DNA of 64,000 bases from Opitutus sp. (GTDB lineage: Bacteria > Verrucomicrobiota > Verrucomicrobiia > Opitutales > Opitutaceae). Shown piece by piece: positions 8,907 to 53,744 of this stretch. The translations under genes and the position numbers were made by a program. The number at the start of each line of letters is the position of its first letter. Positions within the stretch are counted from its first letter, which is position 1. Under the pieces are notes generated by a model. The model saw nothing but the letters and a program-made list of their open reading frames with translations, made no database searches and was not told the origin of the DNA. Location: the NCBI GenBank assembly GCA_024998815.1, contig JACEUQ010000002.1:1440501-1504500 (forward strand), given 5' to 3'.

Positions 8907-10397
8907 ATGGCTGATCTTTTCGCTCAATACGAACACGGTAAATTTTACGACGAGATGTTTGCCTCCCCTGGGCAAACCCACCCGCACTACCAGCGGCTGC
9001 AGGAAAGATTCAGCCAGATGGCGAATATGGCGGAGCTGATGGATCGCCAGCGTACCGCCGACCAGACGTTCATCGACCGCGGCGTCACCTTCACGGTCTA
9101 TTCCGACAACGCTGGCACGGAGAAAATTTTCCCCTTCGACCTGCTCCCGCGCATCATCCCCGCCCACGAATGGGCCCACCTGGAGCGCGGCCTGATCCAG
9201 CGCATGCAGGCGCTCAACCTGTTCCTCGCCGACATCTACGGCGCGCAGCGCATCCTCACCGAGGGCATTATGCCGCGCGAGATGGTCGAGACCTCGAAAA
9301 ACTTCCGCAAGGAACTGGTTGGCTGCAAAATCGCCCGCGACCTTTACGTCCACATTAACGGCTCGGACATGATCCGCGACGAAGCCGGTTTGTACTCGGT
9401 TCTTGAGGACAACCTGCGCACGCCCTCGGGCGTGAGCTATGTGCTCGAAAACCGCCAGGTGATGAAGCGGGTGTTCCCCAATCTGCTGCGCGACTACCGC
9501 GTGCGCCCGGTGGAAAACTACACCAACGACCTGCTCAACCTGCTTGTCCACCTGGCCCCGGAGCACGTGCCCGAGCCCACGGTGGTGTTGCTCACCCCCG
9601 GCGTTTTTAACTCCGCCTATTTCGAGCACAGCTTCCTCGCCCGCCAGATGGGCATCGAAATCGTCGAAGGCAATGACCTGGTGGTGGTAGACGACAAGGT
9701 GTACATGCGCCGCACCCACGGGCTGTCGCCCGTGCACGTCATTTACCGCCGTATCGACGACGATTTCCTCGACCCCACCGTGTTCCGCAAGGACTCGCTG
9801 CTCGGCGTGCCGGGGTTGTTCGAAGCCTATCGCAAAGGCAACGTCGCCCTCTGTAACCCCATCGGCACCGGGGTGGCCGACGACAAGGCCGTGTATTACT
9901 ACGTGCCGCAGATGATCAAATTTTACCTCGGCGAGGACCCCATCCTGCCGAACATCGAGACCTTTCTCTCCGGCAACGAAAAGGAGCTCGGCTACATCCT
10001 CGCCAATTTACCCAAGCTCGTGGTCAAGAGCGTCAACGAAGCCGGTGGCTACGGCATGTTGGTCGGCCCTCACAGCACGCAGACGCAAATCGAGGAGTTT
10101 AGAGCCAAGATCATCGCCCATCCGCGCAACTTCATCGCGCAGCCGACCATCGGATTGTCGCGCTGCCCCAGTGTGTGCGAAGGCGGCACCATCGAAGGCC
10201 GGCACATCGATTTCCGGCCCTACATTCTCAACGGCGAGACGATCAAGATCATGCCCGGCGGCCTCACCCGCGTGGCGCTGCGCAAAGGCAGCTTGGTGGT
10301 CAATTCATCCCAAGGCGGCGGCTCGAAGGACACCTGGGTGCTCAGCGACGACAACGCTTCCACGCCCGTGCCCGCTCCCGAAAAAATCATCGTGTAA
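8907..10397 (+). CDS. Circularly permuted ATP-grasp protein (DUF404/DUF407 type)
   Basis: A 496-residue protein of the circularly permuted ATP-grasp family (COG2308), which in many bacteria sits next to an alpha-E protein and often a transglutaminase-like protein; its substrate is unknown. Family segments are [59 protein letters not shown] and [15 protein letters not shown]. The partner alpha-E gene follows but is separated by a small unrelated gene and its repeats (10423-10948). No transglutaminase gene is visible. Confidence 0.93.
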
Positions 10398-10422: not shown

Positions 10423-10464
10423 ACCAAGGACCAATTACCAAGGACCAATGTCCAAGGCCCAATT
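10423..10464. repeat. Left arm of inverted heptamer array (six units)
   Basis: Six consecutive 7-mers of the form NCCAANN (ACCAAGG, ACCAATT, ACCAAGG, ACCAATG, TCCAAGG, CCCAATT), ending four bases before the four-helix-bundle gene. The arm is inverted relative to 10907-10948. The same heptamer family occurs at six other loci in the window. Confidence 0.9.
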
Positions 10465-10468
10465 ACCC

Positions 10469-10882
10469 ATGAAGGCGAATCCAGCACTCACCACTTCTTT
10501 TGACTTGGAAGAACGTACAGCTGCCTTCGGCGAAAAAGTCACCGAATTTTGCCGGTTGATCCCCCTTGGCCCCACTGCTTCGCCGCTGATCACTCAATTC
10601 GTAAAGTCGGGCACCAGTATGGGTGCCAACTACTGCGAAGCCGATGAGGCTGAATCGAAGCCAGATTTCAGACACAAAATCGCGATCTGCCGCAAAGAAG
10701 CCAAAGAAACCAAAGAAACCAAATACTGGTGTCGCATGATGGCGACCGCCTGCCCGACGCAAACCGAAAGCCTGCGTGGCATTTGGCAAGAAGCCCACGA
10801 GCTTCACCTCATTTTCTGTAAAATAATTCGCACCACCGACGCCAACCTACAAAGCGAACGGTTACTTAAAAAACGCCTTTAA
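10469..10882 (+). CDS. Four-helix-bundle protein (23S rRNA intervening-sequence protein family)
   Basis: A 137-residue all-helical protein resembling the family first found in 23S rRNA intervening sequences and related to Avd proteins of diversity-generating retroelements. Typical features are FGEKVTEFCRLIP near the start, SGTSMGANYCEADEAES, DFRHKIAICRKEAKETK, YWCRMM and EAHELHLIFCKII. ATG 10469 is preferred; an earlier ATG at 10448 would translate the flanking repeat. It interrupts the CP-ATP-grasp/alpha-E pair and is bracketed by inverted six-unit heptamer arms, suggesting insertion as a unit. Basic C-terminus (LLKKRL). Confidence 0.88.
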   Translation: MKANPALTTSFDLEERTAAFGEKVTEFCRLIPLGPTASPLITQFVKSGTSMGANYCEADEAESKPDFRHKIAICRKEAKETKETKYWCRMMATACPTQTESLRGIWQEAHELHLIFCKIIRTTDANLQSERLLKKRL

Positions 10883-10906
10883 CTTCCCTCCTCCACCTTA
10901 GACCTC

Positions 10907-10948
10907 GGCCATTGGTCCTTGGTCATTGGTCATTGGTCATTGGTCCTT
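10907..10948. repeat. Right arm of inverted heptamer array (six units)
   Basis: Six consecutive 7-mers (GGCCATT, GGTCCTT, GGTCATT three times, GGTCCTT), the inverted counterpart of 10423-10464. It is preceded by CCTCGG, the same short linker end found before heptamer arrays at 42.2, 44.7 and 51.2 kb. Confidence 0.9.
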
Positions 10949-10970: not shown

Positions 10971-11957
10971 ATGCTTTCCCGCGTTGCAAATCTCGTTTAC
11001 TGGATGGCCCGCTACCTTGAGCGCGCCGAAAACACCGCTCGCATCGTTGATGTGAACGCCCAGCTCGTGCTCGACCTCCAGTCGCGCCAGGCCGCCGATG
11101 ACCCCAAGTCCTGGGAGCCGTTGGTCTACGTCACCGGCGATGAGGACAAGTTCTTTGAACTCTACGGTGACGCCGTGACCGAGCGTGCTGTCATCGAGTT
11201 CATGCTCTTCGACAAGCGCAATCCCAGCTCGTTGATCTCCTGCATCGCCTTCGCCCGCGAAAACGCGCGCTGCATCCGCGACCAGCTTTCCGGCGACGTT
11301 TGGGAGACGCTCAACACCTTTTACCTCAAACTCAAAAGCGACGACTTCGGTCGCTACGCTCAACTGGGCTCCGCCGAGTACCTGAATCGGGTTAAAACCC
11401 AGATCCAACTCCTCTTCGGCGTGGCCGACTCGATGATCCCCCGCACCAACCTGTGGTGGTTCTTCCAACTCGGCCGGCACCTCGAACGCGCCGACAATAC
11501 CTCGCGCATCCTCGATGTTAAATACTACATGCTGCTGCCCGACGTGCACACGGTAGGCTCGGCTCTCGACATGGTTCAGTGGGCCTCGGTGCTGCGCTCG
11601 TGCTCCGCCTTTGAGGCTTTCCGCCGCTCCCGCCGCGGCCAGCTCAACCTGGAACGCGTAGTCGACTATCTGCTACGTGACGCGGTTTTCCCCCGCAGCA
11701 TCTTGTTTTCCATTGCCGAAGCCGAGCAATCCCTCGCCCAGATCACCGCAGAAGGCAGCCAACTGGACGACTCACCTCCCTCCCGACTACTCCGCTCGCT
11801 ACGTGTCGAGCTCGAGCAAATCGATGTCACCATGGTCATAGCCGACGGCCTACATGAGTTCCTCGATGACGTGCAAATGAAGATCTCCGAAATCCACTCC
11901 GCGATCCAGGAGACCTTCGTCGATTACCCCACCAGTGGTGCGCAGGTGGTAGCCTGA
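10971..11957 (+). CDS. Alpha-E domain protein (DUF403)
   Basis: A 328-residue, mostly alpha-helical protein of the COG2307 family. The N-terminus MLSRVANLVYWMARYLERAENTARIVDVNAQ is diagnostic, and a second similar helix pair (FFQLGRHLERADNTSRILDV) follows. Family members act with CP-ATP-grasp proteins, but their biochemistry is unknown. ATG 10971 is chosen because the upstream in-frame reading translates the heptamer repeat. The intervening insertion may have changed its transcription relative to the ATP-grasp gene. Confidence 0.93.
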   Translation: MLSRVANLVYWMARYLERAENTARIVDVNAQLVLDLQSRQAADDPKSWEPLVYVTGDEDKFFELYGDAVTERAVIEFMLFDKRNPSSLISCIAFARENARCIRDQLSGDVWETLNTFYLKLKSDDFGRYAQLGSAEYLNRVKTQIQLLFGVADSMIPRTNLWWFFQLGRHLERADNTSRILDVKYYMLLPDVHTVGSALDMVQWASVLRSCSAFEAFRRSRRGQLNLERVVDYLLRDAVFPRSILFSIAEAEQSLAQITAEGSQLDDSPPSRLLRSLRVELEQIDVTMVIADGLHEFLDDVQMKISEIHSAIQETFVDYPTSGAQVVA

Positions 11958-17550: not shown

Positions 17551-17607
17551 CAGCATGAAAGACATCCGCAAGCGTAAGGCTAATTCGCTTTCACGTTGAG
17601 ACGGCAT

Positions 17608-18033
17608 CCTTGAGCTCACGCTCAAGGCCACACACCCCGGGAACACCCCTCCGGCATCCTTGAGCTCACGCTCAAGGCCACACGCCTCGAGAACACTCCC
17701 CGTGGCCTTGAGCGTGAGCTCAAGGTGTTTGCCCAAAGGGTAAGCCGCTCCCGCACAAACCCATTTCGTTAAAGCTCATCTTGAACGCGAAGTGGGTTAA
17801 GGCTAATGCCTGTAAGGCATGGCCCGGATAAATCTCGGGATAAGCAAGTTGCGCTATAATATTAATATACGGACAAAGGAATCGAGTACACCGAACCGAA
17901 ACGCCCCCGAGTCCCTGACGAAAGAGAACGAGTAAGAGAACGAGAACGATTCAATCCCCGTCCACCGATCGGCACGTCAGCGGCACCGCTGAATTCCGTA
18001 TCGTCCTCGTTCTCTTAATCTTACTCGTTCTCG
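17608..18033. repeat. Repeat-filled gap between hisD and guaA
   Basis: Three CTTGAGCTCACGCTCAAGG hairpins (17608-17627, 17658-17677, 17706-17725; the third inverted) are followed by an inverted pair of hexamer arrays (GAGAAC/GAGTAA words at 17921-17950, complementary words at 18003-18033). No gene is visible in the 652-bp gap 17449-18100. Confidence 0.85.
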
Positions 18034-24787: not shown

Positions 24788-24820
24788 GCGGGATCGGGCG
24801 AAAGTCGGAGATCTGAGATG

Positions 24821-24974
24821 TCTGATGTCTGATGTCTGATGTCTGATGTCTGATGTCTGATGTCTGATGTCTGATGTCTGATGTCTGATGTCTGATGTCT
24901 GATGTCTGATGTCTGATGTCTGATGTCTGATGTCTGATGTCTGATGTCTGATGTCTGATGTCTGATGTCTGATG
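24821..24974. repeat. Perfect tandem array of 22 TCTGATG heptamers
   Basis: Twenty-two uninterrupted identical 7-bp units (154 bp) between cysW and cysA. On the coding (minus) strand the array contains no stop in any frame and translates as a repeating RHQTSDI heptapeptide. A reading frame opening at a TTG that overlaps the cysW stop (TTGA) crosses the array and closes at a TGA overlapping the cysA start (ATGA). Confidence 0.97.
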
Positions 24975-24980
24975 TCCGGC

Positions 24981-25892
24981 TCAAGCCCGGCTGTTACGCC
25001 ACTCGATGACGGATTTCAAAACCAGGGTGACGATGGCCAGCAGCGCCAGTAAAGAGGCGACGGCGAAGGCGGCGGAAAAATGGTATTCGTTGTACAAAAT
25101 TTCGACGTGCAGCGGCATGGTGTTGGTCTCGCCGCGGATGTGGCCTGAAACCACCGACACAGCACCGAACTCGCCCATGGCACGGGCGTTGCACAGTACC
25201 ACGCCGTAGAAAAGCCCCCACTTGATGTTGGGTAACGTGACGCGCCAAAAGGTCTGCCAGCCGCTGGCACCGAGGGTGACGGCGGCGTATTCTTCGTCGG
25301 TGCCCTGGGCCTGCATCAGCGGAATGAGCTCACGGGCGACAAACGGGAAGGTGATAAAAATGGTGGCTAGGATGATGCCGGGCGTGGCGTAGATGATCTG
25401 GAAATCCTGCCGATAAAGCCACTGCTGGAGCCAGGGAAACCAGACGTTTTCAGCGTTCAAATACTGGCCCAACCAGCCCTGGAGCCCAAACAGGAGCACA
25501 AAGATCATGCCGGCGATCACCGGCGAGACCGCGAAGGGCAGGTCGATGAGGGTGATGAGCACGCTTTTGCCGGGAAAACTAAACTTGGTGATGCACCAAG
25601 CCGCCGCCACGCCGAAGACGACGTTGGAGGGCACGGCGATGACGGCGGTGAGCAAGGTGAGTTTGATGGCCGCCAGCGCATCGGAATCCACCAGCGCCTG
25701 GAAAAACAAAACCACGCCCTTGCGCAACCCTTCGGCAAACACCGCGGTAAGCGGCAGCAGCACAAAGCCAAACAGGAACAGCAGCGCCACCGTGGTGAGC
25801 GACCAACGCACCCACGGGGCATCCTGCGTCACCCGCGAGGCGTGGCCGTGCGAGGAACCGGGTTTATGGAGGTGAGTGACGATGGAGGCCAT
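24981..25892 (-). CDS. cysW: Sulfate ABC transporter permease CysW
   Basis: A 303-residue inner-membrane permease with about six membrane segments. It carries the permease EAA loop ([29 protein letters not shown]) and the CysW-type segments [22 protein letters not shown] and [38 protein letters not shown] 25892 is preferred over an upstream TTG at 25925. It pairs with CysT; the two genes are separated by a heptamer inverted repeat, and the stop abuts the TCTGATG array. Confidence 0.95.
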
Positions 25893-25920
25893 GCGGGAGG
25901 AGGAGGCGGAGGGCGGAAAA

Positions 25921-26157
25921 TCCAATGCTCAATGACCAAGGCCCAATTACCAATGACCAATTACCAATGACCAATGCTCAATGGCCAATGACCAATCCGT
26001 AGTGCGGAGGGGGCGGCTGGTTGAAGTTGGGCGTTTCATTATTGGTTATTGGTCATCGAGTCTTAGTCATTGGTCATTTCTCATTGGTCCTTGGTCATTA
26101 GTCATTTCTCATTGGTCCTTGGTCCTTGGGCATTGGGCATTGGTCCTTGCTCATTTC
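25921..26157. repeat. Inverted heptamer arrays between cysT and cysW
   Basis: The left arm has 11 units of the NCCAATN type (25921-25997). The right arm has 16 units of the TCATTGG type (26046-26157). A GC-rich linker of about 48 bp (with GTAGTGCGGAGG and GGTTGAAGTTGGG) lies between. This has the same architecture as 10423-10948 but carries no gene. It makes a very large potential hairpin inside the sulfate transport operon. Confidence 0.93.
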
Positions 26158-26170
26158 TCTGCCGCCTCGC

Positions 26171-27001
26171 CTAGATCTTGTGGTAGCGACGGCTCCACTT
26201 CTGCAACAGGTTAATGAGCAACAATAAAACGAAGGAAGATACGAGCATTACGGTGGCAATGGCGGTGGCGCCCTTGTAGTCGTATTGCTCCAGTTTTTCG
26301 ATGATCACGTGCGGCACGATCTGGGTTTTCATGGGCAAATTCGCCCCGATAAAAACCACCGAACCGTATTCGCCCAGGGACCGGGCAAACGCCATGGCGG
26401 TGCCGGCGATGAGCGCCGGCACCAGTTGCGGAATGATCACCTTAAACACGGTCTGAAAGCGGCTGGCGCCGAGGGTGGCCGAGGCTTCCTCCAACTCCGG
26501 CTCCAGCTCCTCAATGACCGGCTGGAGCGTGCGCACCACGAAGGGTAAACCGATAAAGGTCAGCGCTACAAAAACACCCAAGGGCGTGTAGGCGATCTGG
26601 ATGTCGTGGGGGGCCAACCAGCGGCCGATCCAGCCGGTCGGCCCATAAATCGTGGTCAACGCGATGCCCGCCACCGCCGTGGGCAGCGCGAAGGGCAGAT
26701 CCACCAGCGCATCCACCACCCGCTTGCCGGGGAACGTATAACGCACCAGCACCCACGCCACAATCAGCCCAAAAAACGAGTTAACCAGCGAGGCCGCCAA
26801 CGAGGCGAAAAAGGTGACCTTGTAGGCCGACACCACTAGGGGCGAACTCACCGACGCCCAAAACTCCGCCACCGTCATGCCCGAGGTTTTAATGAAAACG
26901 GCCGACAGCGGCAGCAGCACGATCAGGCTCAGGTAGGCGACCGTGAAGCCGAGCGAGAGGCCGAAGCCGGGCAGGATGGAACGTGAGGAACGGCTGGACA
27001 T
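26171..27001 (-). CDS. cysT: Sulfate ABC transporter permease CysT
   Basis: A 276-residue inner-membrane permease partner of CysW (also called CysU). It shows about six membrane segments, DLPFALPTAVAGIALTTIYG, the EAA loop (EEASATLGASRFQTVFKVIIPQLVPALIAG) and ARSLGEYGSVVFIGANLP. ATG 27001 gives MSSRSSRSILPGFGLSLGF, the usual N-terminus; a longer reading needs a TTG at 27091 close to the sbp stop. It is 93 bp downstream of sbp. Confidence 0.95.
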   Translation of the reverse strand: MSSRSSRSILPGFGLSLGFTVAYLSLIVLLPLSAVFIKTSGMTVAEFWASVSSPLVVSAYKVTFFASLAASLVNSFFGLIVAWVLVRYTFPGKRVVDALVDLPFALPTAVAGIALTTIYGPTGWIGRWLAPHDIQIAYTPLGVFVALTFIGLPFVVRTLQPVIEELEPELEEASATLGASRFQTVFKVIIPQLVPALIAGTAMAFARSLGEYGSVVFIGANLPMKTQIVPHVIIEKLEQYDYKGATAIATVMLVSSFVLLLLINLLQKWSRRYHKI

Positions 27002-27094
27002 CAAAGGTTGACGGAGTGGCGATATGGACGCGGTGGGCGCGAGGACAGGGGATGCTTTCGAGCTCGCGCCGGATGGCAAGGGTTTCGGCAAGGA

Positions 27095-36144: not shown

Positions 36145-36290
36145 AATCGTTCTCGTTCTCCTACTCCTACTCGTTCTCTTACTCTTACTCGTTCTCTTAC
36201 TCTTACTCGTTCTCCAAGGCCGCCTAGAGAGCGGAGGAATCCGATTTCACGAGGTGAGAACGAGTAGGAGTAAGAGAACGAGAACGATTG
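36145..36290. repeat. Inverted hexamer word arrays upstream of prfA
   Basis: Left arm (36145-36214): about eleven 6-mers of the GTTCTC / CTACTC / TTACTC type. Right arm (36256-36290): the complementary GAGAAC/GAGTAG/GAGTAA words. The family also occurs at 16.0 and 17.9 kb. Confidence 0.88.
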
Positions 36291-36326: not shown

Positions 36327-36484
36327 GAACGTTCAACATCCAACATTGAACATCCAACGTCCAAGGGGGAGCCGGCCAAGGACCAAGGCTCAATGACCAA
36401 GGACCAATGGCCAAGGCACCAAGGCTCAAATCGGAGACCGGGCTGGTTGAACGTTGGACGTTCAATGTTGAATGTTGGACGTTG
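36327..36484. repeat. Nested heptamer families upstream of the HAD gene
   Basis: Two inverted arms of the AACATCC/GTTGGAT heptamer family (36327-36362 and 36446-36484) enclose a one-sided array of NCCAAGG/NCCAATG heptamers (36375-36424) and a short linker containing CGGAGACCGGGCTGG. Together with the hexamer arrays they fill the 446-bp gap 36094-36539. Confidence 0.88.
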
Positions 36485-39495: not shown

Positions 39496-41924
39496 GCGAA
39501 AGCCCCGCGCCCACACGCTCGCTCTCGCGCAAGATCACCCTGCCGCTGGTGCTCGTGGGCACCTGCCTGGCCGCGCTCGGCGTGGCGGGCATCTACACCA
39601 TCGTCAGCTCGCACCTAGAAGCGCGCCTGCGCCTGCGCGCTCAGACCATCGCCCAATCCATCGCCTACGCCGCCGAAAACATAGATAGGGAAGGCGAATT
39701 GCAGCGCATCGTCAGCGCAACCGGTGCGGAGCGGGAAGTCTCCCTGCTGCTGGTTTCCGGCGGCTATCCCAACGCGGTTGTCGCTAGCAGCAACCCGACT
39801 TGGCGCAAACGCCCGCTCGAACTCGATTTCGCCACGGTAAAACTCCACCGGTACGAGGAGATCACCCAAGCCACATGGAGCGCGATTGGCCTCGACCCGC
39901 GCAAACCACCCGCCGACTGGCTGGTGGTTTCCCTGCCCCTGCAACTGCACAACCTAGAGGTTAACACCATTAATTTGTACCCCGCCGTGGTGCTGGTCGC
40001 CCTCGACACCACCGCCACGCGGGCGGATGTCTGGCGCCTCACCGCGTGGGCGGCGGTCGGATTCAGCCTGACGCTGGTAGCGCTCAGCACGCTGTATTAC
40101 CTCAACCTACGCCGCCTCGTGCTGCGCCCGCTCTCCGAGCTCGCCCAACGCCACCTCGGCGCCCCGGTCCCCAGTCCACGCCCTGCGGCCACCGTGGTCG
40201 ACCCCGCCGACGAAATCGGCCAGCTCGACGCCGCGCTCACCCGCACCTTCACCGCCATCAACGCCGCACGCATTGAGCGCGATCACATTGAATTCGCCTT
40301 CAACCAACATGTCATCGTGGCGGCTACAGATCCGCGCGGCCGGATAATTTATGCCAATGACCGGTTCTGCAACGTCTCTGGGTATTCGCGGCAAGAACTG
40401 CTCGGTCAGGATCACCGCATCGTTAACTCCGGCCACCATCCACGCGAATTCTTCGCCGATCTCTACAAAACTATCCAGCATGCCGGTGTCTGGCATGGGG
40501 AAATCTGCAACAGGACCAAAAGTGGCAAGTTATACTGGGTGGATACCACGATCGTCCCTGAATTGGATTCCGCTGGGAAACCCGTTCGCTACGTAGCGCT
40601 GCGTAGCGACATCACCGAGCGCAAGGCCGCTGAAGCCGAGCTCATGGAGACCAACAGCCAGCTCAACCTCGCCATCGACCGGGCCAACCAACTGACCCTC
40701 ACCGCCGAGATGGCGACCATCGCCAAGGCCGATTTTTTGGCGAATATGAGCCACGAAATCCGCACCCCGATGAACGGGGTCATCGGCATGTTGAGCCTGT
40801 TAATCGATTCCCCGCTTTCGGAGGAACAGCGCCAGTTCGCCACCGTCGCCAACGCCAGCGGCGAGACCCTGCTCACCTTGATCAACGATATCCTCGATTT
40901 CTCCAAGATCGAGGCCGGCAAACTCACCATCGAGTCCATCGACTTGGATCTCGCACACCTGATCAGCTCCTTGATGCCGATCTTCGAATTCCGCGCGAAG
41001 GAGAAACAGATCGCGTTGATCCAGGAAATCCAGCCCACGGTGCCCACGCTACTCGTGGGCGACCCGGTGCGCCTGCGCCAGGTTATCACCAACCTGATGA
41101 CCAACGCCCTCAAGTTCACCACCCAGGGCGAGGTGAAACTGAGCATCACCGCCCCGCGCCTCACGCCCACGGAAGTGGTTTTGCGTTTCGCGGTGAGCGA
41201 CACCGGACTGGGAATACCGGAGGACAAAATCGGGCGGTTATTTAACAAGTTCAGCCAAGTGGACACCTCGACGACGCGCAAATACGGCGGCACGGGGTTG
41301 GGCCTGGCCATCTGCAAACAACTCGCCGAGTTAATGGGCGGAGAAGTCGGGGTAAGCAGCCAAGCCGGGCAAGGCTCGGAATTTTGGTTCACCGCGCGGC
41401 TCGGACGCCAGCCGCCCACAGCCCGCCAAGCTGCCCGTGTAACGCCGAGTTGGAGCTCGGCTGCCCCGGTAACCGCTTCCGTCAGCGTCTCGGCTCCCGC
41501 GTCGACCACGCCGGTGCGCATCTTACTCGCCGACGACAACGAGACGAACCAACTGGTGACGCTCAGCCTATTAAAAAAAATCGGTTACGCCTGCGCCACG
41601 GTAGGCGACGGCGCAGCGGCGATTCGCGCCCTCGCCGCGCACCCCTACGAGCTGGTGTTGATGGACGTGCAAATGCCGGAGATGGACGGCCATGAAGCCA
41701 CCACGCGCATCCGTGCAGGGGAAGCCGGGGAAGCCAAGCGCCAGGTACCGATCATCGCGATGACCGCGCACACGCTCAGTGGTGACCGCGAAGCGTGTTT
41801 GGCGGCAGGGATGAGCGATTACCTGAGTAAACCCATCGAACCGCTGGCGCTGAAAGCGATGGTCGAGCGCTGGCTACCGGCGTCGCCAACAACAGCCGGA
41901 ACAACGTCCAACATCCAACATTGA
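39492..41924 (+). CDS. Hybrid histidine kinase with periplasmic domain, PAS and receiver
   Basis: 810 residues. Membrane segment 1 (about 16-38), a periplasmic domain of about 140 residues, membrane segment 2 (about 182-206), a linker, PAS (about 270-378), HisKA with phospho-His H421 ([13 protein letters not shown]), HATPase (about 520-645; [22 protein letters not shown]) and a receiver (about 670-795) with phospho-Asp D725. Its ATG overlaps the binding-protein stop. No output domain or response regulator is adjacent, so the phosphate must pass to a partner elsewhere. The final residues (TTSNIQH) and stop derive from a heptamer repeat. Confidence 0.94.
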   Translation: MSESPAPTRSLSRKITLPLVLVGTCLAALGVAGIYTIVSSHLEARLRLRAQTIAQSIAYAAENIDREGELQRIVSATGAEREVSLLLVSGGYPNAVVASSNPTWRKRPLELDFATVKLHRYEEITQATWSAIGLDPRKPPADWLVVSLPLQLHNLEVNTINLYPAVVLVALDTTATRADVWRLTAWAAVGFSLTLVALSTLYYLNLRRLVLRPLSELAQRHLGAPVPSPRPAATVVDPADEIGQLDAALTRTFTAINAARIERDHIEFAFNQHVIVAATDPRGRIIYANDRFCNVSGYSRQELLGQDHRIVNSGHHPREFFADLYKTIQHAGVWHGEICNRTKSGKLYWVDTTIVPELDSAGKPVRYVALRSDITERKAAEAELMETNSQLNLAIDRANQLTLTAEMATIAKADFLANMSHEIRTPMNGVIGMLSLLIDSPLSEEQRQFATVANASGETLLTLINDILDFSKIEAGKLTIESIDLDLAHLISSLMPIFEFRAKEKQIALIQEIQPTVPTLLVGDPVRLRQVITNLMTNALKFTTQGEVKLSITAPRLTPTEVVLRFAVSDTGLGIPEDKIGRLFNKFSQVDTSTTRKYGGTGLGLAICKQLAELMGGEVGVSSQAGQGSEFWFTARLGRQPPTARQAARVTPSWSSAAPVTASVSVSAPASTTPVRILLADDNETNQLVTLSLLKKIGYACATVGDGAAAIRALAAHPYELVLMDVQMPEMDGHEATTRIRAGEAGEAKRQVPIIAMTAHTLSGDREACLAAGMSDYLSKPIEPLALKAMVERWLPASPTTAGTTSNIQH

Positions 41925-42256
41925 ACGTCCAACATTCAACCTACCGAAAATCTCCGCACTCCGAATCCGGCCCTTTGAACGTTGGATGTTCAATGTTGGA
42001 TGTTGAGCGTTCTCCGAATTCCGCCCCTCCCCCGGAACAACCCCTCGAACAACGTCCAACATCCAACATTGAACGTCCAACATTCAACCTGCCGACCCAG
42101 ACGACACGGAGGTCGTCCATCCCCCGGAACAAAGCCTCGGAAAACATCCAACATCCAACATTGAACGTCCAACATTCAACCTACCGACCCGACCTCCACC
42201 CCCCGCACTCCGACTCGGTCATTGGTCCTTGGTCATTGATCATTGGTCATTGGTCC
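41901..42256. repeat. Heptamer repeat block between kinases 1 and 2
   Basis: Four AACATCC/AACATTG-type arrays (41901-41940, 41975-42012 inverted, 42048-42088, 42143-42180), an ACACGGAGGTCGTCC palindrome (42101-42115), a linker with CGCACTCCGACTCGG and five TCATTGG-type heptamers (42219-42253). No gene in the 522-bp gap 41925-42446. Confidence 0.9.
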
Positions 42257-42326: not shown

Positions 42327-42429
42327 CCTCTTTCTCTTTCCTCTTAATCTTAATCTTTCGTCAGGGATCAGCCGGATCGATCCAATCGGAAAAGAGAACG
42401 ATTAAGATAAAGAGTAACGAGAAAGATTC
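42327..42429. repeat. Inverted CTCTTT/AATCTT box upstream of kinase 2
   Basis: Homologous to 38283-38396 and 44820-44917. Its right arm AAGAGAACGATTAAGATAAA ends 17 bp before the ATG of the kinase. It can form a hairpin of about 35-nt arms. Confidence 0.88.
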
Positions 42430-44647: not shown

Positions 44648-44808
44648 ACAACGTCCAACATCCAACATTGAACGTTCAACATCCAACCAACCCGAGCAAA
44701 CCAGCCACCCGCACTCCACCTCGGTCATTGCTCATTGGTCATTGGACATTGGTCATTGGTCATTGGTCATTGGTCATTGGTCATTGGTCATTGGTCATTG
44801 GTCATTGG
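44648..44808. repeat. Heptamer repeat module between kinases 2 and 3
   Basis: AACATCC/AACATTG-type array (44648-44689), a linker ending CGCACTCCACCTCGG and twelve TCATTGG-type heptamers (44725-44808), of which the last eight are identical. The order matches the module at 42143-42253. The gap 44589-44938 has no gene. Confidence 0.92.
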
Positions 44809-44819
44809 CCCCCCTCCGC

Positions 44820-44917
44820 CCTCTTTCTCTTTCCTCTTCATCTTAATCTTTCGTCAAGGCCGGCCCGAGTCGGATCGGAGTAGAGAACGATTAAGATAAA
44901 GAGTAACGAGAAAGATT
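44820..44917. repeat. Inverted CTCTTT/AATCTT box upstream of kinase 3
   Basis: Third copy of the box seen at 38283 and 42327, ending 21 bp before the kinase ATG. The right arm shares ACGATTAAGATAAAGAGTAA with the 42-kb copy. Confidence 0.88.
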
Positions 44918-44938
44918 TTAAGCCCTCCGCCCCCCCCC

Positions 44939-47900
44939 ATGCCGCTCCCGCTCCACTTTCGCGCCTCCAAGCTCCGCACGCTCACCCCACTGGTGATCGC
45001 CCTCGGCCTGGCCCTGAGCGCTGCGCTCGCCTGGCAGGCCGAGAAGACCGCCGCCTCCTCCGACCTCCAACGCTTCCAGCGCTTCAACGAGCGCATCCAA
45101 GCGGCGGTCACCCGCAGCGTCCGCCGCTTCGACTACGGCCTGCGCGGCTCCATGGCGCTCTGGCCCGCCACTAAGTCGGTGGAACGCGGCGAATTCACCC
45201 AGATGTTTACTGCGCGCGACCTCCCCAGCGAGTTCCCCGGTGCCCTCGGCCTCGGTTTCATCAAACGCGTCGAGCGCGCCGACATCCCCGCCTTCCTCGC
45301 CGCCACGCGCGCCGACGAAGCGCCTGATTTTAAGCTCAAAACCAGCGGCGAGGCAGCCGACCTGTTCGTCATCGAATTCATCGAACCGTTGGCCAAAAAC
45401 CAAGCCGCGCAGGGCTTCGATGTCGGCCAGGAAAAAAACCGCCGCGCTGCGGCCGAACGCGCCATGCTCACCGGCCAGGCTGCGCTCACCGAGCCCATTA
45501 TCCTGGTGCAGGCCAAGGATGAAGGCCCCGGCTTCCTGTACTTTTACCCCGTTTATAAAAACGGCACCCACCCCGTCACGCCCGAGCAACGCCGCGCCGC
45601 CTTGTTAGGCTGGACCTACATGCCCATCGTTGCCTCGCGCATCTTTGCCCACGTGACCGAGGAGGTCGGCGGCGAACTCGATTTTGAAATTTTCCAGGGT
45701 GAAACCCTCGACGCCGCCCACACGATTTTCGATGCCGACGGGCATTTAAAAGGCTCAACCGGCACCGTAACGGCCCAAAACTATACGCAGCGCCAATTCC
45801 ACACCACCACGCCTGTGAGCGTCGGCGGGCTCATGTGGACACTCGCCACCAGCACGACCCCCAAGTTCAACCATACTTCGCGGCTCGGCGTTTATAGCGC
45901 CGCAATCGGCGGGCCGCTGCTCACGCTGCTGCTCGCGGCCCTCTTGATGAACCTAAGTCGCACCACGCGCAAAGCCCAGGCGCTGGCCACCGCGATGACC
46001 GCCGACCTCGCCGCCGCCAAGGCCAAGGCGGAGATGCTCGCCTTGGTCGCCACCCGCACCACCAACGCCGTCGTCTTCACCGACGCCGAGCGCCGTATTA
46101 CTTGGGTCAACGCGGGCTTTACGCGAATCACCGGCTACACCCTGGACGAAGTCCTCGGCAAGTCGCCCGGACAGGTACTGCAATCCAGCGCAACTGACCC
46201 TGAGACGATCCTGGCGATGCGGGCAGCGCTGAACGCCGGCGAAGGTTTTAAAGGCGAGATCATCAACTGCGGTAAAGCCGGCCAGATCTACTGGCTCGAC
46301 CTCAACATCATTCCGCTGCGCGACGACGCTGGGCTGCTCACCGGGTTTATGGCGATCGAGCTGGATATCACCGCACGCAAACACGCCGAGGTTTTGCTCA
46401 AGGAACAGGCCGAACGCACCGAGCTGGCGATGGAGAGCGGCGGACTCGGCCTGTGGGACTGGAACGTCGTCACCGGCGAAACCCTCTTCGACCACCGCTG
46501 GGCCGCCATCGTTGGCGAGGAGTTGGCCGATTTGCGCCCCCACGTCGACGAATGGCTAACGCGCTGCCACCCGGTTGACCTGCCGATCGCCCAGGCCGCG
46601 CTGCAGCGCCACTTCTCCGGAGAGACCGCGTTTTATCAGTGCCGGCACCGGGTCAAACACCGCCGCGGCCACTGGCTGTGGATCATGGATTGCGGCCGCG
46701 TCGTGAGTCGCTCAGCCGACGGCAAACCGTTGCGTATGGTCGGCACCCACCATGACATCACGAGCACGCAACTCGCCCAGCTTGAGATCGAGCGGCACGT
46801 CACCGCGCTCGACCACACCAGCCGCTTGGCCAAGGTCGGCGCCTGGGAATACAACCCGCTCCTGCAAACCCTCACCTGGAGCGACCAGGTGCGCGTGATC
46901 CACGAGGTCGACGCCTACTACGAGCCCACGCTGGCCACCGCCACCGCCTTCTACCTCGGCGAGGCCGCCGCCACGATCAAGGGGCTCATTAAAGCCGCCC
47001 TCGACCACGGCACGCCCTTCGACATCGAACTGCCCTTCTGCACCGCCCAGGGCAACCACCTCTGGGTGCGCGCCGTCGGCGAAGCCAGCCGCGTGGGTGA
47101 AACCACCGTGCTCCTTCGCGGCGCTTTGCAGGACATCACCGAGTCGCACCGCCAGCGCGAGTTGCTCGCCCATGCCAAAGACGCCGCCGAGGCCGCCACC
47201 CGCGCCAAGGCCGATTTCCTGGCCAACATGAGCCACGAAATCCGCACCCCCATGAACGCGGTCATCGGCATGACCGAGCTGCTCCAAGGCTCGCCGCTCG
47301 ACGCCGAACAAACCGAGTTAGTTGGCACCATCCGCACCAGTGGCGAGGCGCTGCTGAGTTTGATTAACGACATCCTCGATTTCTCCAAAATCGAGTCCGG
47401 CTACCTCGAACTCGAGCACATGCCGGTCAACCTGCGCGACTGCCTTGAAACCGCTGTGTCAATCAGCGGACACAGTGCCGCCGCCAAGGGGATCGACTTG
47501 ATGCTCGAAATCGAACCGGGCACTCCCGAGGCCATGCTCGGCGACTCCACCCGTCTGCGCCAAGTCGTCACCAACCTGTTAAGCAACGCGGTCAAATTCA
47601 CCACTCAAGGCGAGGTGTTAGTGAGCCTCTCCCTGCAAGCGGACCAGCGCCTGCGTTTTGCGGTGCGCGACACCGGTATGGGCATTCCCGCCGACAAGCT
47701 CGACCGGCTGTTCAAGTCGTTCAGCCAAGTGGACAGCTCCATCACGCGCAATTTCGGCGGCACGGGGCTGGGGCTGGCGATCAGCCAACGCCTGGTCGAG
47801 ATGATGGGCGGGCGCATCGGCGTGGAATCCACCCCGGGCCAAGGCTCCACCTTCAGCTTTGAGATCCCCTACGAAAGTGCCGCCTGCCCGCCGCGCGCCG

Positions 47901-48805
47901 GCGAAGGTGACAGGGCAGTGTTGGCCGGACGCCGCCTGCTCATCGTCGATGACAACGACTCCAACCGCCGCATCCTCGCCAGCCAGTGCAGCGGCTGGGG
48001 ACTCGACGCACAGACGGTCGACTCCGGCGCCGCCGCCCTCCAGTTAATCGACGCCGGCACCCGTTTTGACGCGGCGCTCATCGACGTACAAATGCCCGGC
48101 ATGGACGGGCTGACGCTCGCCGCCGAGTTGCGTCGCCGCCTACCCGCGAGCCAACTGCCGCTGCTGGTGCTGACCTCGCAAGGCACCACCGCGCAGGCCT
48201 TCGCTGGGCTCGACGTGGCCCGCGTGCTGAGCAAACCGGCGCGCGCCGAGGTACTCCGAGGTGCATTAGGTGAGCTCTTTCAGCCCAAGCCCACGAAGGC
48301 GAAAGCCGACGCGGCCGGGGCTGCGGCGGCGAATGGGAACTCAGGCGTGGCAGGGGCGGAGACGGGGGCGGACGCGCCTACGCTGAAGCCGGCGCTGCGC
48401 ATATTATTGGTGGAAGACATCGAGATTAACCAACAAGTGGCGACGCTGCTGTTGGGGCGGCTCGGGTACACGGCGGCGATTGCCAACAACGGTGTGGAAG
48501 CGCTTGAAGCGGTGGCCAAAGAGACCTTTGACCTGATCTTTTTGGACATGCAGATGCCCGAGATGGACGGGTTAACCTGTGCGGGCCACCTGTGTGCGAA
48601 ATACCCGGCGTCGACGCGCCCGTGGATCACGGCGATGACGGCCAACGCGCTGGAAGGGGACAGGGAAAAGTGTATTGGGGCCGGCATGGACGACTATGTG
48701 AGCAAGCCGATCAGCGGCCAGGCGCTGACGGGGGCGATCGCGCGGGCGGCCGAAGGCCTGCGCGGGCGGAGGGAGGGCCAAGGAGCAATGACCAATGTCC
48801 AATGA
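44939..48805 (+). CDS. Large hybrid histidine kinase: CHASE, three PAS, HisKA, HATPase, two receivers
   Basis: 1288 residues. Membrane segment 1 (about 14-34), a CHASE sensory domain (about 60-250; YGLRGSMALW, GLGFIKRVERAD), membrane segment 2 (about 316-340), PAS domains at about 365-480, 495-610 and 625-735, HisKA with H766, HATPase (about 870-985), receiver 1 (D1049) and receiver 2 (D1203). CHASE domains bind small extracellular ligands. Two receivers after one kinase suggest a relay, but no Hpt or output protein is nearby. The last residues and the stop come from a heptamer repeat. Confidence 0.95.
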   Translation: MPLPLHFRASKLRTLTPLVIALGLALSAALAWQAEKTAASSDLQRFQRFNERIQAAVTRSVRRFDYGLRGSMALWPATKSVERGEFTQMFTARDLPSEFPGALGLGFIKRVERADIPAFLAATRADEAPDFKLKTSGEAADLFVIEFIEPLAKNQAAQGFDVGQEKNRRAAAERAMLTGQAALTEPIILVQAKDEGPGFLYFYPVYKNGTHPVTPEQRRAALLGWTYMPIVASRIFAHVTEEVGGELDFEIFQGETLDAAHTIFDADGHLKGSTGTVTAQNYTQRQFHTTTPVSVGGLMWTLATSTTPKFNHTSRLGVYSAAIGGPLLTLLLAALLMNLSRTTRKAQALATAMTADLAAAKAKAEMLALVATRTTNAVVFTDAERRITWVNAGFTRITGYTLDEVLGKSPGQVLQSSATDPETILAMRAALNAGEGFKGEIINCGKAGQIYWLDLNIIPLRDDAGLLTGFMAIELDITARKHAEVLLKEQAERTELAMESGGLGLWDWNVVTGETLFDHRWAAIVGEELADLRPHVDEWLTRCHPVDLPIAQAALQRHFSGETAFYQCRHRVKHRRGHWLWIMDCGRVVSRSADGKPLRMVGTHHDITSTQLAQLEIERHVTALDHTSRLAKVGAWEYNPLLQTLTWSDQVRVIHEVDAYYEPTLATATAFYLGEAAATIKGLIKAALDHGTPFDIELPFCTAQGNHLWVRAVGEASRVGETTVLLRGALQDITESHRQRELLAHAKDAAEAATRAKADFLANMSHEIRTPMNAVIGMTELLQGSPLDAEQTELVGTIRTSGEALLSLINDILDFSKIESGYLELEHMPVNLRDCLETAVSISGHSAAAKGIDLMLEIEPGTPEAMLGDSTRLRQVVTNLLSNAVKFTTQGEVLVSLSLQADQRLRFAVRDTGMGIPADKLDRLFKSFSQVDSSITRNFGGTGLGLAISQRLVEMMGGRIGVESTPGQGSTFSFEIPYESAACPPRAGEGDRAVLAGRRLLIVDDNDSNRRILASQCSGWGLDAQTVDSGAAALQLIDAGTRFDAALIDVQMPGMDGLTLAAELRRRLPASQLPLLVLTSQGTTAQAFAGLDVARVLSKPARAEVLRGALGELFQPKPTKAKADAAGAAAANGNSGVAGAETGADAPTLKPALRILLVEDIEINQQVATLLLGRLGYTAAIANNGVEALEAVAKETFDLIFLDMQMPEMDGLTCAGHLCAKYPASTRPWITAMTANALEGDREKCIGAGMDDYVSKPISGQALTGAIARAAEGLRGRREGQGAMTNVQ

Positions 48806-48957
48806 CCAATGACTAATGACCAATGCTCAACCCGAGGATTGCCGCGAAGGTTGAACGTTCTCCGCACCTCCGCCTGCTAAACATTGGTCATTGCTCCTTG
48901 GACATTGATCATTGGTCCTTGGTCATTGGCCCTTGGTCATTGGTAATTGGTCCTTGG
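48777..48957. repeat. Inverted heptamer arrays between kinase 3 and glyA
   Basis: Left arm of seven NCCAATG-type units (48777-48825), which overlaps the kinase 3' end and supplies its TGA. Right arm of eleven TCATTGG-type units (48881-48957). The spacer of about 55 bp contains GGTTGAACGTTCTCCGC, a fragment of the second heptamer family. Confidence 0.93.
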
Positions 48958-52673: not shown

Positions 52674-52708
52674 GTGGTACGGACGCCGCATAAACTACGC
52701 CTCGTGGC

Positions 52709-52985
52709 CTTGAGCGTGAGCTCAAGGTGTTTGCCCTTCGCGAACACACTCCTCGGGGCCTCGAGCGTGAGCTCAAGGTGTTTGCCCTTCGCGAACACAC
52801 TCCTCGGGGCCTTGAGCGTGAGCTCAAGGTGTTTCCCCTTCGCGAACACACTCCTCGTGGCCTTGAGCGTGAGCTCAAGGTGTTTGCCCTTCGCGAACAC
52901 ACTCCTCGTGGCCTCGAGCGTGAGCTCAAGGTGTTTGCCCTTCGCGAACACACTCCTCGTGGCCTTGAGCGTGAGCTCAAGGTGT
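52709..52985. repeat. Tandem array of six TTGAGC hairpins with 51-bp period
   Basis: Units begin at 52709, 52760, 52811, 52862, 52913 and 52964. Each has a CTTGAGCGTGAGCTCAAGG hairpin (units 2 and 5 read CTCGAG) and a spacer with TTCGCGAACACACTCCTCG. The array starts 35 bp after the MFS stop and ends 3 bp before the convergent DUF2293 stop. As 51 is a multiple of 3, long spurious frames cross it on both strands. Confidence 0.95.
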
Positions 52986-52988
52986 TTG

Positions 52989-53744
52989 CTAAAACGCCAG
53001 CGGCATCTGCGCCGGAGCTGCGGCGGCGGGAGCGCCGGCCGAAGCGGGTGACGCCGGCTTGGGCCGATACGGGGCGAGCGCCCGGGCCAGGGGGCAAGTG
53101 GCGACTTCGATCGGCTGACCTTGGCGGTAGCGGGCGAGCAGTTGCACCGAGCGCTGGGCGAGCATTCGGCGGACCTCGCGGCGGCGGCCTTTGACCAAGG
53201 GAATCACCATGGTGTCATAGCCGGTGGTTTGATGGCGCATCCAGGCGATGGTGGCCGCCTCGGCGCGCTCCTCGATGGGAATGCGCTCCGTGCGCGCCAC
53301 CGTGCCACTGCCCACCGGCACGGCGTGATCGGCAATGAGTTTCGCCATCAACTGCGCCTCACCGCGAAAAGCGGGATGGAAGTTAAGAAACGCCTGCACG
53401 GCCGCACGGAAATCCTCGGCGTAGACGACCTGTTCGGCGGCACGGCGGTTGCGCCCGGCGGCGAGTTGGCGCTGGTAGGCTGGGTCCTGGAGCTCGGCGG
53501 CGCGTTCAGTCTGAAGCGCGGCGATGCGTGTAGCCGGCGCCCAAATACCACGCGAAAAGCGTTTATTGCCCTTCATCTCAACCACCGTCCAAGTCGGCCC
53601 GTCCTGCTTGATGCGCTTGCTCAGGGCGGCGTCGCCGGGCGGTAGCAGGGCCCAACCGGCCGGTATCGCCAGCACCCGGGTATCAGCAGCGAGGACGTGG
53701 CCGGGCTTGGAAAACGGACGGACTTCACGGGTTTCGGTAGGCAT
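52989..53744 (-). CDS. DUF2293 protein
   Basis: 251 residues. The DUF2293 core lies at about residues 115-200 (HPAFRGEAQLMAKLIADHAVPVGSGTVARTERIPIEERAEAATIAWMRHQTTGYDTMVIPLVKGRRREVRRMLA) and is rich in basic residues, suggesting nucleic-acid contact. Function unknown. The Ala/Pro-rich C-terminus (PASPASAGAPAAAAPAQMPLAF) ends just before the hairpin array. Confidence 0.85.
   Translation of the reverse strand: MPTETREVRPFSKPGHVLAADTRVLAIPAGWALLPPGDAALSKRIKQDGPTWTVVEMKGNKRFSRGIWAPATRIAALQTERAAELQDPAYQRQLAAGRNRRAAEQVVYAEDFRAAVQAFLNFHPAFRGEAQLMAKLIADHAVPVGSGTVARTERIPIEERAEAATIAWMRHQTTGYDTMVIPLVKGRRREVRRMLAQRSVQLLARYRQGQPIEVATCPLARALAPYRPKPASPASAGAPAAAAPAQMPLAF

Follow-up and report, generated by a model that had tools for sequence, protein, structure and literature searches.

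What kind of genetic element sets a small gene between two inverted heptamer arrays, inside a gene pair that some other genomes keep almost contiguous? The question is raised by positions 10423-10948 of the window, the whole 64,000-nucleotide stretch of Opitutus sp. DNA analyzed here. The first-pass annotation had interpreted this locus as a possibly mobile or RNA-processed element, with heptamer arrays as its termini and a four-helix-bundle gene as its only cargo.

Architecture of the element

Direct reading of the sequence, TRF, and a periodicity scan divided the locus, about 0.5 kb in all, into six heptamers, a 137-aa gene, and six inverted heptamers. The 5′ arm (10423..10464, plus strand) consists of six NCCAANN heptamers and ends four bases before the ATG at 10469; a second in-frame ATG at 10448, within the array, gives an alternative reading of 144 aa. 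The four-helix-bundle (4HB) gene (10469..10882, plus strand) was assigned to PF05635 using Pfam, AlphaFold2, and Foldseek. The 3′ arm (10907..10948, plus strand) contains six inverted GGNCNTT heptamers, which correspond to the reverse complement of the 5′ unit. Pfam identified the upstream neighbor as a circularly permuted (CP) ATP-grasp gene (8907..10397, plus strand; PF14403/PF04174) and the downstream neighbor as an alpha-E gene (10971..11957, plus strand; PF04168), and the 4HB gene lies in sense with both. The arms, the gene, and the split ATP-grasp/alpha-E pair were thus confirmed as first annotated. The pattern CCAANNNCCAANNNCCAA gave 150 overlapping matches in the 4.24-Mb genome, a count that takes in some other units such as CCAAGCT, compared to 5 for the reversed pattern; the window arms are therefore no chance product. 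In the cassette gene, Pfam matched only PF05635, with no transposase and no Y1 tyrosine transposase, and Rfam at gathering score gave no match anywhere in the window.

The four-helix-bundle protein

The window protein matched PF05635 with E=2.8e-9 (37.6 bits, cut-off 33.8) and TIGR02436 with 55.3 bits (cut-off 24). Its AlphaFold2 model is a helical bundle with a mean pLDDT of 87, and the nearest solved folds found using Foldseek were 2rld (E from 3e-4) and 2gsc (E from 0.03), each with five chains. A paper title on Xcc0516, as given in the reference list of PMC10053308, likewise speaks of five four-helix bundles. A 9-bp direct repeat within the window gene (10693..10723, plus strand; TRF and alignment) encodes KETKETK; its extra copy amounts to a 3-aa insertion that is absent from ten other aligned members. 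Values of dN/dS were 0.04-0.11 in 11 of 14 pairs of 4HB genes and dS was infinite in the other three, and although these ratios are rough, with dS above 1 in most pairs, they indicate that the protein is under purifying selection. We know of no enzymatic activity for PF05635, and as this is the sole domain matched in the cassette protein, copying or moving the cassette would need another enzyme. With one 4HB query, no match was found in 50,697 phage records at 1e-5; 26 plasmid records matched, mostly cyanobacterial. At one locus (L079), the 4HB reading frame continues into the 3′ arm, where the 7-base units encode a 7-residue repeat (TPNPELQ).

The ATP-grasp/alpha-E site in related genomes

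An ATP-grasp match was found in 39 of 61 host-family genomes, and 30 loci were fetched. When searched by tblastn with the window protein, only two of the 30 held a 4HB gene at the ATP-grasp/alpha-E site (L119 is cut before the gap): the window's own locus and L108, whose protein is 58% identical to the window protein and whose unit is CTAAGGA. The junctions of 16 loci were read by eye, and full, decayed, and empty sites were all present among the relatives, the comparison that the first-pass annotation had proposed. L110 retains its two arms (CGAATGA) and a shortened start of the gene, and L111 the arms and a few codons. L106, from the same genus, is empty with an 8-bp gap; this gap measures just 6-26 bp in L106, L107, L109, L112, and L118. 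Other loci had gaps of 35-207 bp or other arrays (L126, L123), that of L126 being a gene-less period-9 pair of CACAGAG type. Presence of the gene at this position in all relatives, which the first-pass annotation had named as a refutation of its proposal, was thus not observed.

In a tree of the ATP-grasp sequences (the junction-read loci minus L117 and L123, plus L120 and L121), each full locus was sister to an empty one, with support of 0.998 and 0.996, so that at least two losses or gains must have taken place at this site. Neither a target-site duplication nor an exact empty site could be placed, the junctions being too diverged to set the ends. Across genomes, the units at this site were CCAATGA, CTAAGGA, CGAATGA, and CGAATTA. 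The unit varies between copies and the two arms of one copy agree, from which it follows that the arms change in concert.

Period-7 arrays beside 4HB genes, from family to phyla

A 4HB match was present in 81 of 100 host-family genomes and absent from 19. The host-family sample comprised 74 loci (5 from the own genome, 29 retrieved in the search, and 40 further), or 72 after dropping 2 cut by contig ends. Arrays were called in 280-bp flanks at a period-7 score of at least 8 in either flank or at least 6 in both, and the controls were 720 tiles, mostly coding, from 20 stretches of 8 kb picked blind in the genomes of the host-family loci. Period 7 was detected in either flank of 61 of the 72 loci (84.7%), compared to 3.5% of tiles, and in both flanks of 56, compared to 0.8%. 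Period 14, a harmonic of 7, was found at 76% of loci against 5% of tiles, while the remaining periods showed a small excess at most (12, 14% versus 9%; 15, 19% versus 7%; 8, 7% versus 1%). Eleven loci fell under the threshold, several of which hold short or imperfect heptamers on reading; L003 passes narrowly through a short stretch, though its arrays are 6-base. By eye, all five TIGR02436 loci of the own genome are flanked by arrays, with the units AGCTAGG/AGCTCCC, TCAGACG/GACCTCT, the 6-base GAGAAC type (L003), CCAATGA, and AATCCTA (L005, short).

Two wider samples agreed. A named set of 80 loci from one 4HB subfamily spans, by record titles, Cyanobacteria, Bacteroidetes, Acidobacteria, Chloroflexi, Planctomycetes, Nitrospirae, Poribacteria, and others. 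Here, period 7 was detected in a flank of 67 of 76 uncut loci, compared to 4 of 66 far-flank controls; for both flanks, the counts were 55 and 1. In 12 genomes of this set, 24 of 28 4HB loci passed (30 fetched, 2 cut; this count overlaps the named set). The second sample was a draw from the class of a Muproteobacterium genome, presumed to be Gammaproteobacteria, in which 54 of 274 genomes had a 4HB match. Of 29 new loci, 6 were cut, and 21 of the other 23 passed, 20 in both flanks; at two of them, L286 and L287, the flanking arrays consist of GGGANTN units. The enrichment of heptamers beside the 4HB genes of relatives, which the earlier annotation had singled out as the check on its proposal, is therefore present at each scale, and most such genes carry them. 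These counts also rule out chance or a lone odd locus. Regarding the proposed element itself, the association of arms and gene holds in many phyla, and its mobility is what we infer from the distribution of sites described below.

A second gene family with period-9 arms

Because the control tiles are mostly coding, a better control is offered by the GxxExxY genes (PF13366, PD-(D/E)XK superfamily by Pfam, three tested), which had 10 matches in the own genome and occurred in 52 of 61 host-family genomes. Of 37 loci scored, 3 were cut, leaving 34; the fragments L014 and L015 were left out. Strong inverted arms were found at 79% of the 34 loci compared to 16% of tiles. Period 9 was the most enriched, with scores of at least 5 in both flanks at 76% of loci (33% of tiles) and at least 8 in either flank at 44% (9%); periods 8, 10, and 12 were also raised, less so, and period 7 was present at only 6%. 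The units are of the kind CACAGAGGN, and an outer TTTTTAAC was frequent on reading. Both neighbors ran in the direction of the GxxExxY gene (++) in 30 of 31 called pairs. A general tendency of small genes in operon gaps to acquire heptamers is disfavored by these loci, which show period 9 and not 7. The two omitted fragments lie about 1.3 kb apart in the own genome (C1, 832-834 kb) and look like parts of one gene, possibly split by an insertion.

The arms match each other and follow the protein

Both arms were clear in 41 loci. There, the similarity of the 5′ unit to the reverse-complemented 3′ unit was 0.89, compared to 0.45 across loci and to 0.29 when the two units were taken from a single strand. 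When each site was represented by a single locus, unit similarity was 0.85 within a locus and 0.39 across loci (n=54). As judged from these alignments, both arms are one unit placed on opposite strands. Protein identity predicted unit similarity (n=54, r=0.70, 0 of 2000 permutations as high). Since sharing of sites could produce such a correlation, 177 loci were grouped by homologous flanks into 102 sites, and among the 134 elements with a clear array one per site was kept. The correlation persisted in this Mantel test (n=82, r=0.42, 0 of 5000 permutations as high, top permuted value 0.18). For pairs at different sites, mean unit similarity was 0.91 at protein identities of at least 75% (n=28, probably mostly from the AGTAGCG group), 0.55 at 60-75%, 0.47 at 50-60%, and 0.34-0.39 below 50%. 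These comparisons show a unit that is locus-specific and co-varies with the 4HB protein.

Many loci of the named-set subfamily carry TCAGCNN or variants, and the polarity of the unit is kept: in the 80 loci, 5′ flanks held 94 TCAGC and 38 GCTGA, and 3′ flanks held 17 TCAGC and 87 GCTGA. Among 189 clear arms, 84 measured 29-33 nt, 29 measured 22-26, 15 measured 36-40, and 25 were longer; when each site contributed a single locus, 29-33 nt accounted for 39 of 98 arms, with a gradual fall above 33 (5 arms at 33 nt, 3 at 34). Four periods plus a core of 1-5 nt give 29-33 nt, so the modal arm holds five cores. Five is the mode and not the rule, as the window element has six and class-draw arms are often longer. 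Set beside the five chains of the solved relatives, this mode suggests one heptamer per 4HB subunit.

Might the arrays be slippage-prone intergenic microsatellites, made mirror-symmetric by palindrome correction, beside which 4HB genes merely happen to be located? Template switching could yield arms that differ in unit between genomes and match within a copy, as at the ATP-grasp/alpha-E site, and long perfect arrays do exist without a 4HB gene, such as the error-free GATGTCT array of 22.9 copies at 24817-24976, whose length is likely variable. We nevertheless regard such a by-product as very improbable, because within the host family 4HB genes take period 7 and GxxExxY genes period 9, and because the unit tracks the protein even with one element per site.

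Gene-less pairs and other repeats

The first-pass annotation had also reported two gene-less inverted pairs in the window and proposed that they were deletion derivatives. The periodicity scan showed that both pairs are real and carry the CCAATGA unit of the 4HB element. One (25923-25996 and 26063-26159) lies between two minus-strand ORFs (24981-25925 and 26171-27091). The other (48779-48825 and 48882-48957) precedes the SHMT gene, and its left arm reaches into the plus-strand ORF 44939-48805 at the end of that frame. As L110 and L111 retain arms with a gene stump, gene-less pairs can come from deletion. No stump was seen by eye in either window pair (25923-26159 and 48779-48957), for which deletion is a possible origin.

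Other repeats were noted in the window. A third gene-less inverted pair (36328..36484; periodicity scan) uses a second unit, CAACATC/GTTGAAC, with a CCAAGGA array in its loop. Gene-less inverted pairs of 6-base units (TCGTTC and GAGAAC types) at 36147-36287, 42327-42427, and 44820-44930 resemble the arms of L003. At 41902-42255 and 44649-44808, successive CAACATC- and GGTCATT-type half-arrays appear to be stacked or rearranged gene-less elements. Arrays of units of about 50 bp at 17602-17725 and 52700-52989, in opposite orientation, share a common core like CTTGAGCTCACGCTCAAGG.

Location, orientation, and movement of the cassettes

In the host family, both neighbors were co-directional with the 4HB gene (++) in 62 of 63 pairs called with a GC3-weighted ORF caller (a longest-ORF caller gave few pairs, ++ 8 and -- 1, for the 74 loci). 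Under the same rule, background tiles of arbitrary strand gave ++ 75, -- 42, +- 34, and -+ 28. With a cruder caller, the sense bias was weaker in the named set (++ 24, -- 5, +- 3; 32 called pairs), and the class draw gave ++ 6, -- 1, and -+ 1.

The genes at recurrent sites were GC3-chosen ORFs examined with Pfam at 20 of 21 sites (L288/L289 left out), with gene names read from the hits. The sites included gyrB/gyrA, nuoF/nuoG, pheS/pheT, gatA/gatB, sdhA/sdhB, hemF/hemB, metK/ahcY, and dprA/topA; further sites lay between two TldD/PmbA-type genes, rmlB/rmlA-type genes, a response regulator and a kinase, a binding protein and a permease, ABC and HlyD proteins, two ABC-2 permeases, and two sugar-nucleotide enzymes. 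At the remaining sites, the identities were less clear or one of the genes lacked a Pfam match.

Cassettes with the unit AGTAGCG were found at gyrB/gyrA, gatA/gatB, and pheS/pheT, with unrelated flanks, which indicates that gene and arms changed place together. Among pairs of elements with the same unit, 65 had homologous flanks and 32 did not. All 32 come from the AGTAGCG group, so direct support for movement as a unit comes from this group and from the polymorphism of sites. Three site clusters join host-family loci with those of other groups (L197; L293; L296). Taken together, the flanks show that cassettes persist at some sites across several genera and that persistence outweighs changes of place; patchy sites and the recurrence of AGTAGCG at unrelated ones point to occasional mobility.

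Proposed recognition as transcript or as DNA

The RNA of the window element was predicted to fold 3.9 SD below shuffled sequences (0 of 100 as low), with the arms pairing in the predicted fold, and that of a gene-less pair 7.2 SD below (0 of 200 as low). This folding and the sense orientation would be compatible with the RNA processing that the first-pass annotation had proposed. Selection for RNA pairing was also sought through G.U-compatible mismatches in 111 elements, and the result was against it, with 180 such mismatches compared to 291 of the A.C class; since these alignments include sequence beside the arms, the outcome gives no support for pairing selection and is not a disproof. The 5′ array ended a median of 21 nt before the start codon (10th-90th percentile 1 to 71, start codons being chosen by rule). 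Of the 68 distinct units, 7 contain a Shine-Dalgarno-like 4-mer, compared to 1 when the units are reverse-complemented; a Shine-Dalgarno role for the array was rejected on this count, and the purine bias of the 5′ arms was modest (mean 0.57).

Our preferred reading, to which we assign a probability of about 0.6 on sequence evidence, is that of a dispensable, occasionally mobile intercistronic cassette whose arms would be recognized by a pentameric 4HB protein. The cassette would consist of about 0.5 kb, with a 4HB gene between inverted, locus-specific heptamer arrays, inserted in sense between co-directional genes. A 4HB pentamer may bind the arms with about one heptamer per protomer, as the modal arm of 29-33 nt would allow, and such recognition could help the cassette to spread or to persist. 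Once transcribed, the arms could close a long hairpin around the gene, so that the cassette would do little harm to an essential operon, as is the case for those intervening sequences of 23S rRNA in which related proteins are encoded. Arm-only copies would be decayed or non-autonomous derivatives.

The same protein could instead serve the host, binding the heptamers in the transcript to control its own translation and to tune the flanking genes in the manner of a TRAP-like ring. The tendency of the 5′ array to end near the start codon, the sense orientation, the persistence at some sites, and the location between subunit genes such as gyrB/gyrA, nuoF/nuoG, and sdhA/sdhB would fit such an RNA switch. 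Occupancy of the ATP-grasp/alpha-E site is patchy even between sister genomes, however, and with the 19 host-family genomes that have no 4HB match this indicates that the cassette is not generally needed; the G.U result and the scarcity of Shine-Dalgarno-like units add to the difficulty, and we consider a host-serving switch quite unlikely.

Plain DNA transposition would treat the arms as terminal inverted repeats and the 4HB protein as an accessory DNA binder, with a nuclease or transposase acting in trans. Double-stranded recognition would explain, with no base pairing, why the same unit stands on opposite strands, and it is consistent with the failure of the G.U test, with the conserved polarity of TCAGC and GCTGA relative to the gene, and with the PD-(D/E)XK nuclease-superfamily domain encoded by the parallel GxxExxY cassettes. 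Against it, the nearly exclusive sense orientation in the host family is unexpected, unless expression is retained by sense copies alone; no target duplication was seen at junctions too diverged to place the ends, and no transposase was matched in the cassette. This makes plain transposition a rather unlikely account.

A wider version of the cassette reading may be entertained tentatively. Selfish or half-domesticated cassettes would occupy conserved operon gaps throughout bacteria, a five-subunit ring would read five heptamers, one per subunit, and protein and unit would evolve jointly, as a lock with its key. In a parallel class, a PD-(D/E)XK protein would take the place of the ring and period 9 that of period 7. 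Homing to conserved gaps, by analogy with inteins and homing-endonuclease genes, might proceed via an RNA copy, a step that would account for the sense orientation. Decay of such cassettes could be the source of the ownerless heptamer repeats of cyanobacteria and Xanthomonas.

For PF05635, a family with two structures and no known role, the analysis supplies a strong and testable candidate substrate in the heptamers that flank its own genes, and predicts that five subunits match five units. A possible origin is also offered for ownerless intergenic heptamer repeats, and the results point toward a type of intercistronic cassette that two unrelated protein families share in highly conserved operons. 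If the pairing of protein and unit is a recognition code, many natural pairs are available for decoding it.

Comparison with known systems

Heptamer repeats have been described before. In the sections of PMC4692102 that concern them, the GGGAATC heptamers of Xanthomonas form mostly intergenic arrays, commonly of four units, with 70 convergent pairs in X. campestris, and are treated as G-quadruplex repeats, generally without mobile-element association and with no gene tied to them. The cassette arms resemble them as tandem 7-base units in convergent, intergenic pairs, the GGGANTN arrays of L286 and L287 being of the same type; unlike those heptamers as described there, the cassette arms bracket a 4HB gene. 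According to passages of PMC4679880, TAACTGA repeats form heptamer arrays that lie between genes, close to start codons, in Beggiatoaceae, Cyanobacteria, and Bacteroidetes. In contrast to the cassette arms, those of Beggiatoaceae are almost all direct, with one inverted case (PMC4679880), and the phrase 'four helix' is absent from the main text of that paper. In Flavobacterium columnare, a four helix bundle gene lies between the genes for guanylate kinase and nicotinate-nucleotide adenylyltransferase, with no repeats mentioned in the relevant part of PMC5524665. The open-licence literature yielded no paper linking PF05635 or 4HB genes to heptamer arrays, and a report elsewhere is possible. Cyanobacterial STRR units probably include TTGGTCA, which is the window unit in another frame.

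In those 23S rRNA intervening sequences that encode a PF05635 protein, the gene is enclosed by complementary ends within a transcribed unit; such sequences occur sporadically and are excised from the RNA by RNase III without religation. The cassette resembles them in its PF05635 protein, a family linked to 23S rRNA in passages of PMC10053308, in complementary ends able to form a stem (z = -3.9), in its transcribed setting, and in being sporadic. The window element is not inside a 23S rRNA gene, as ATP-grasp and alpha-E flank it; unlike the intervening sequences, it occupies a gap between protein genes, and its ends are heptamer arrays with a unit that tracks the protein.

Avd of diversity-generating retroelements, which resembles PF05635 according to the same passages (PMC10053308), has a possibly related fold, as Foldseek ranked chains of 4dwl and 8ub7 (E 0.1-0.5) after 2rld and 2gsc. 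Of the 31 reverse-transcriptase hits in the genome, none lies inside the window, the nearest among the matches listed being about 15 kb upstream of the gene. The cassette differs from a diversity-generating retroelement in having no reverse transcriptase beside the window 4HB gene; as to a partner enzyme of this kind elsewhere, the hits speak neither for nor against. Twenty-two of the 31 score nearly alike and are perhaps group II introns of recent spread.

In REP/RAYT systems, short palindromic repeats flank one gene, further copies of the repeat occur elsewhere with no gene, and repeat and protein change together. The cassette shares the one gene with flanking repeats, the gene-less copies, and the joint change of repeat and protein; it differs in that no Y1 transposase was matched in its gene and in that its arms are 7-base arrays, not one imperfect palindrome. 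As regards insertion sequences and MITEs, the cassette gene gave no Pfam match besides PF05635, and the junctions of full and empty sites, read by eye, were too diverged for a target-site duplication to be placed. The protein family, the heptamer repeats, and the 23S intervening sequences are known singly, and we found no report in the open-licence literature that joins them. Among known element classes, 23S intervening sequences, diversity-generating retroelements, and REP/RAYT each have a defining feature that the window element does not share.
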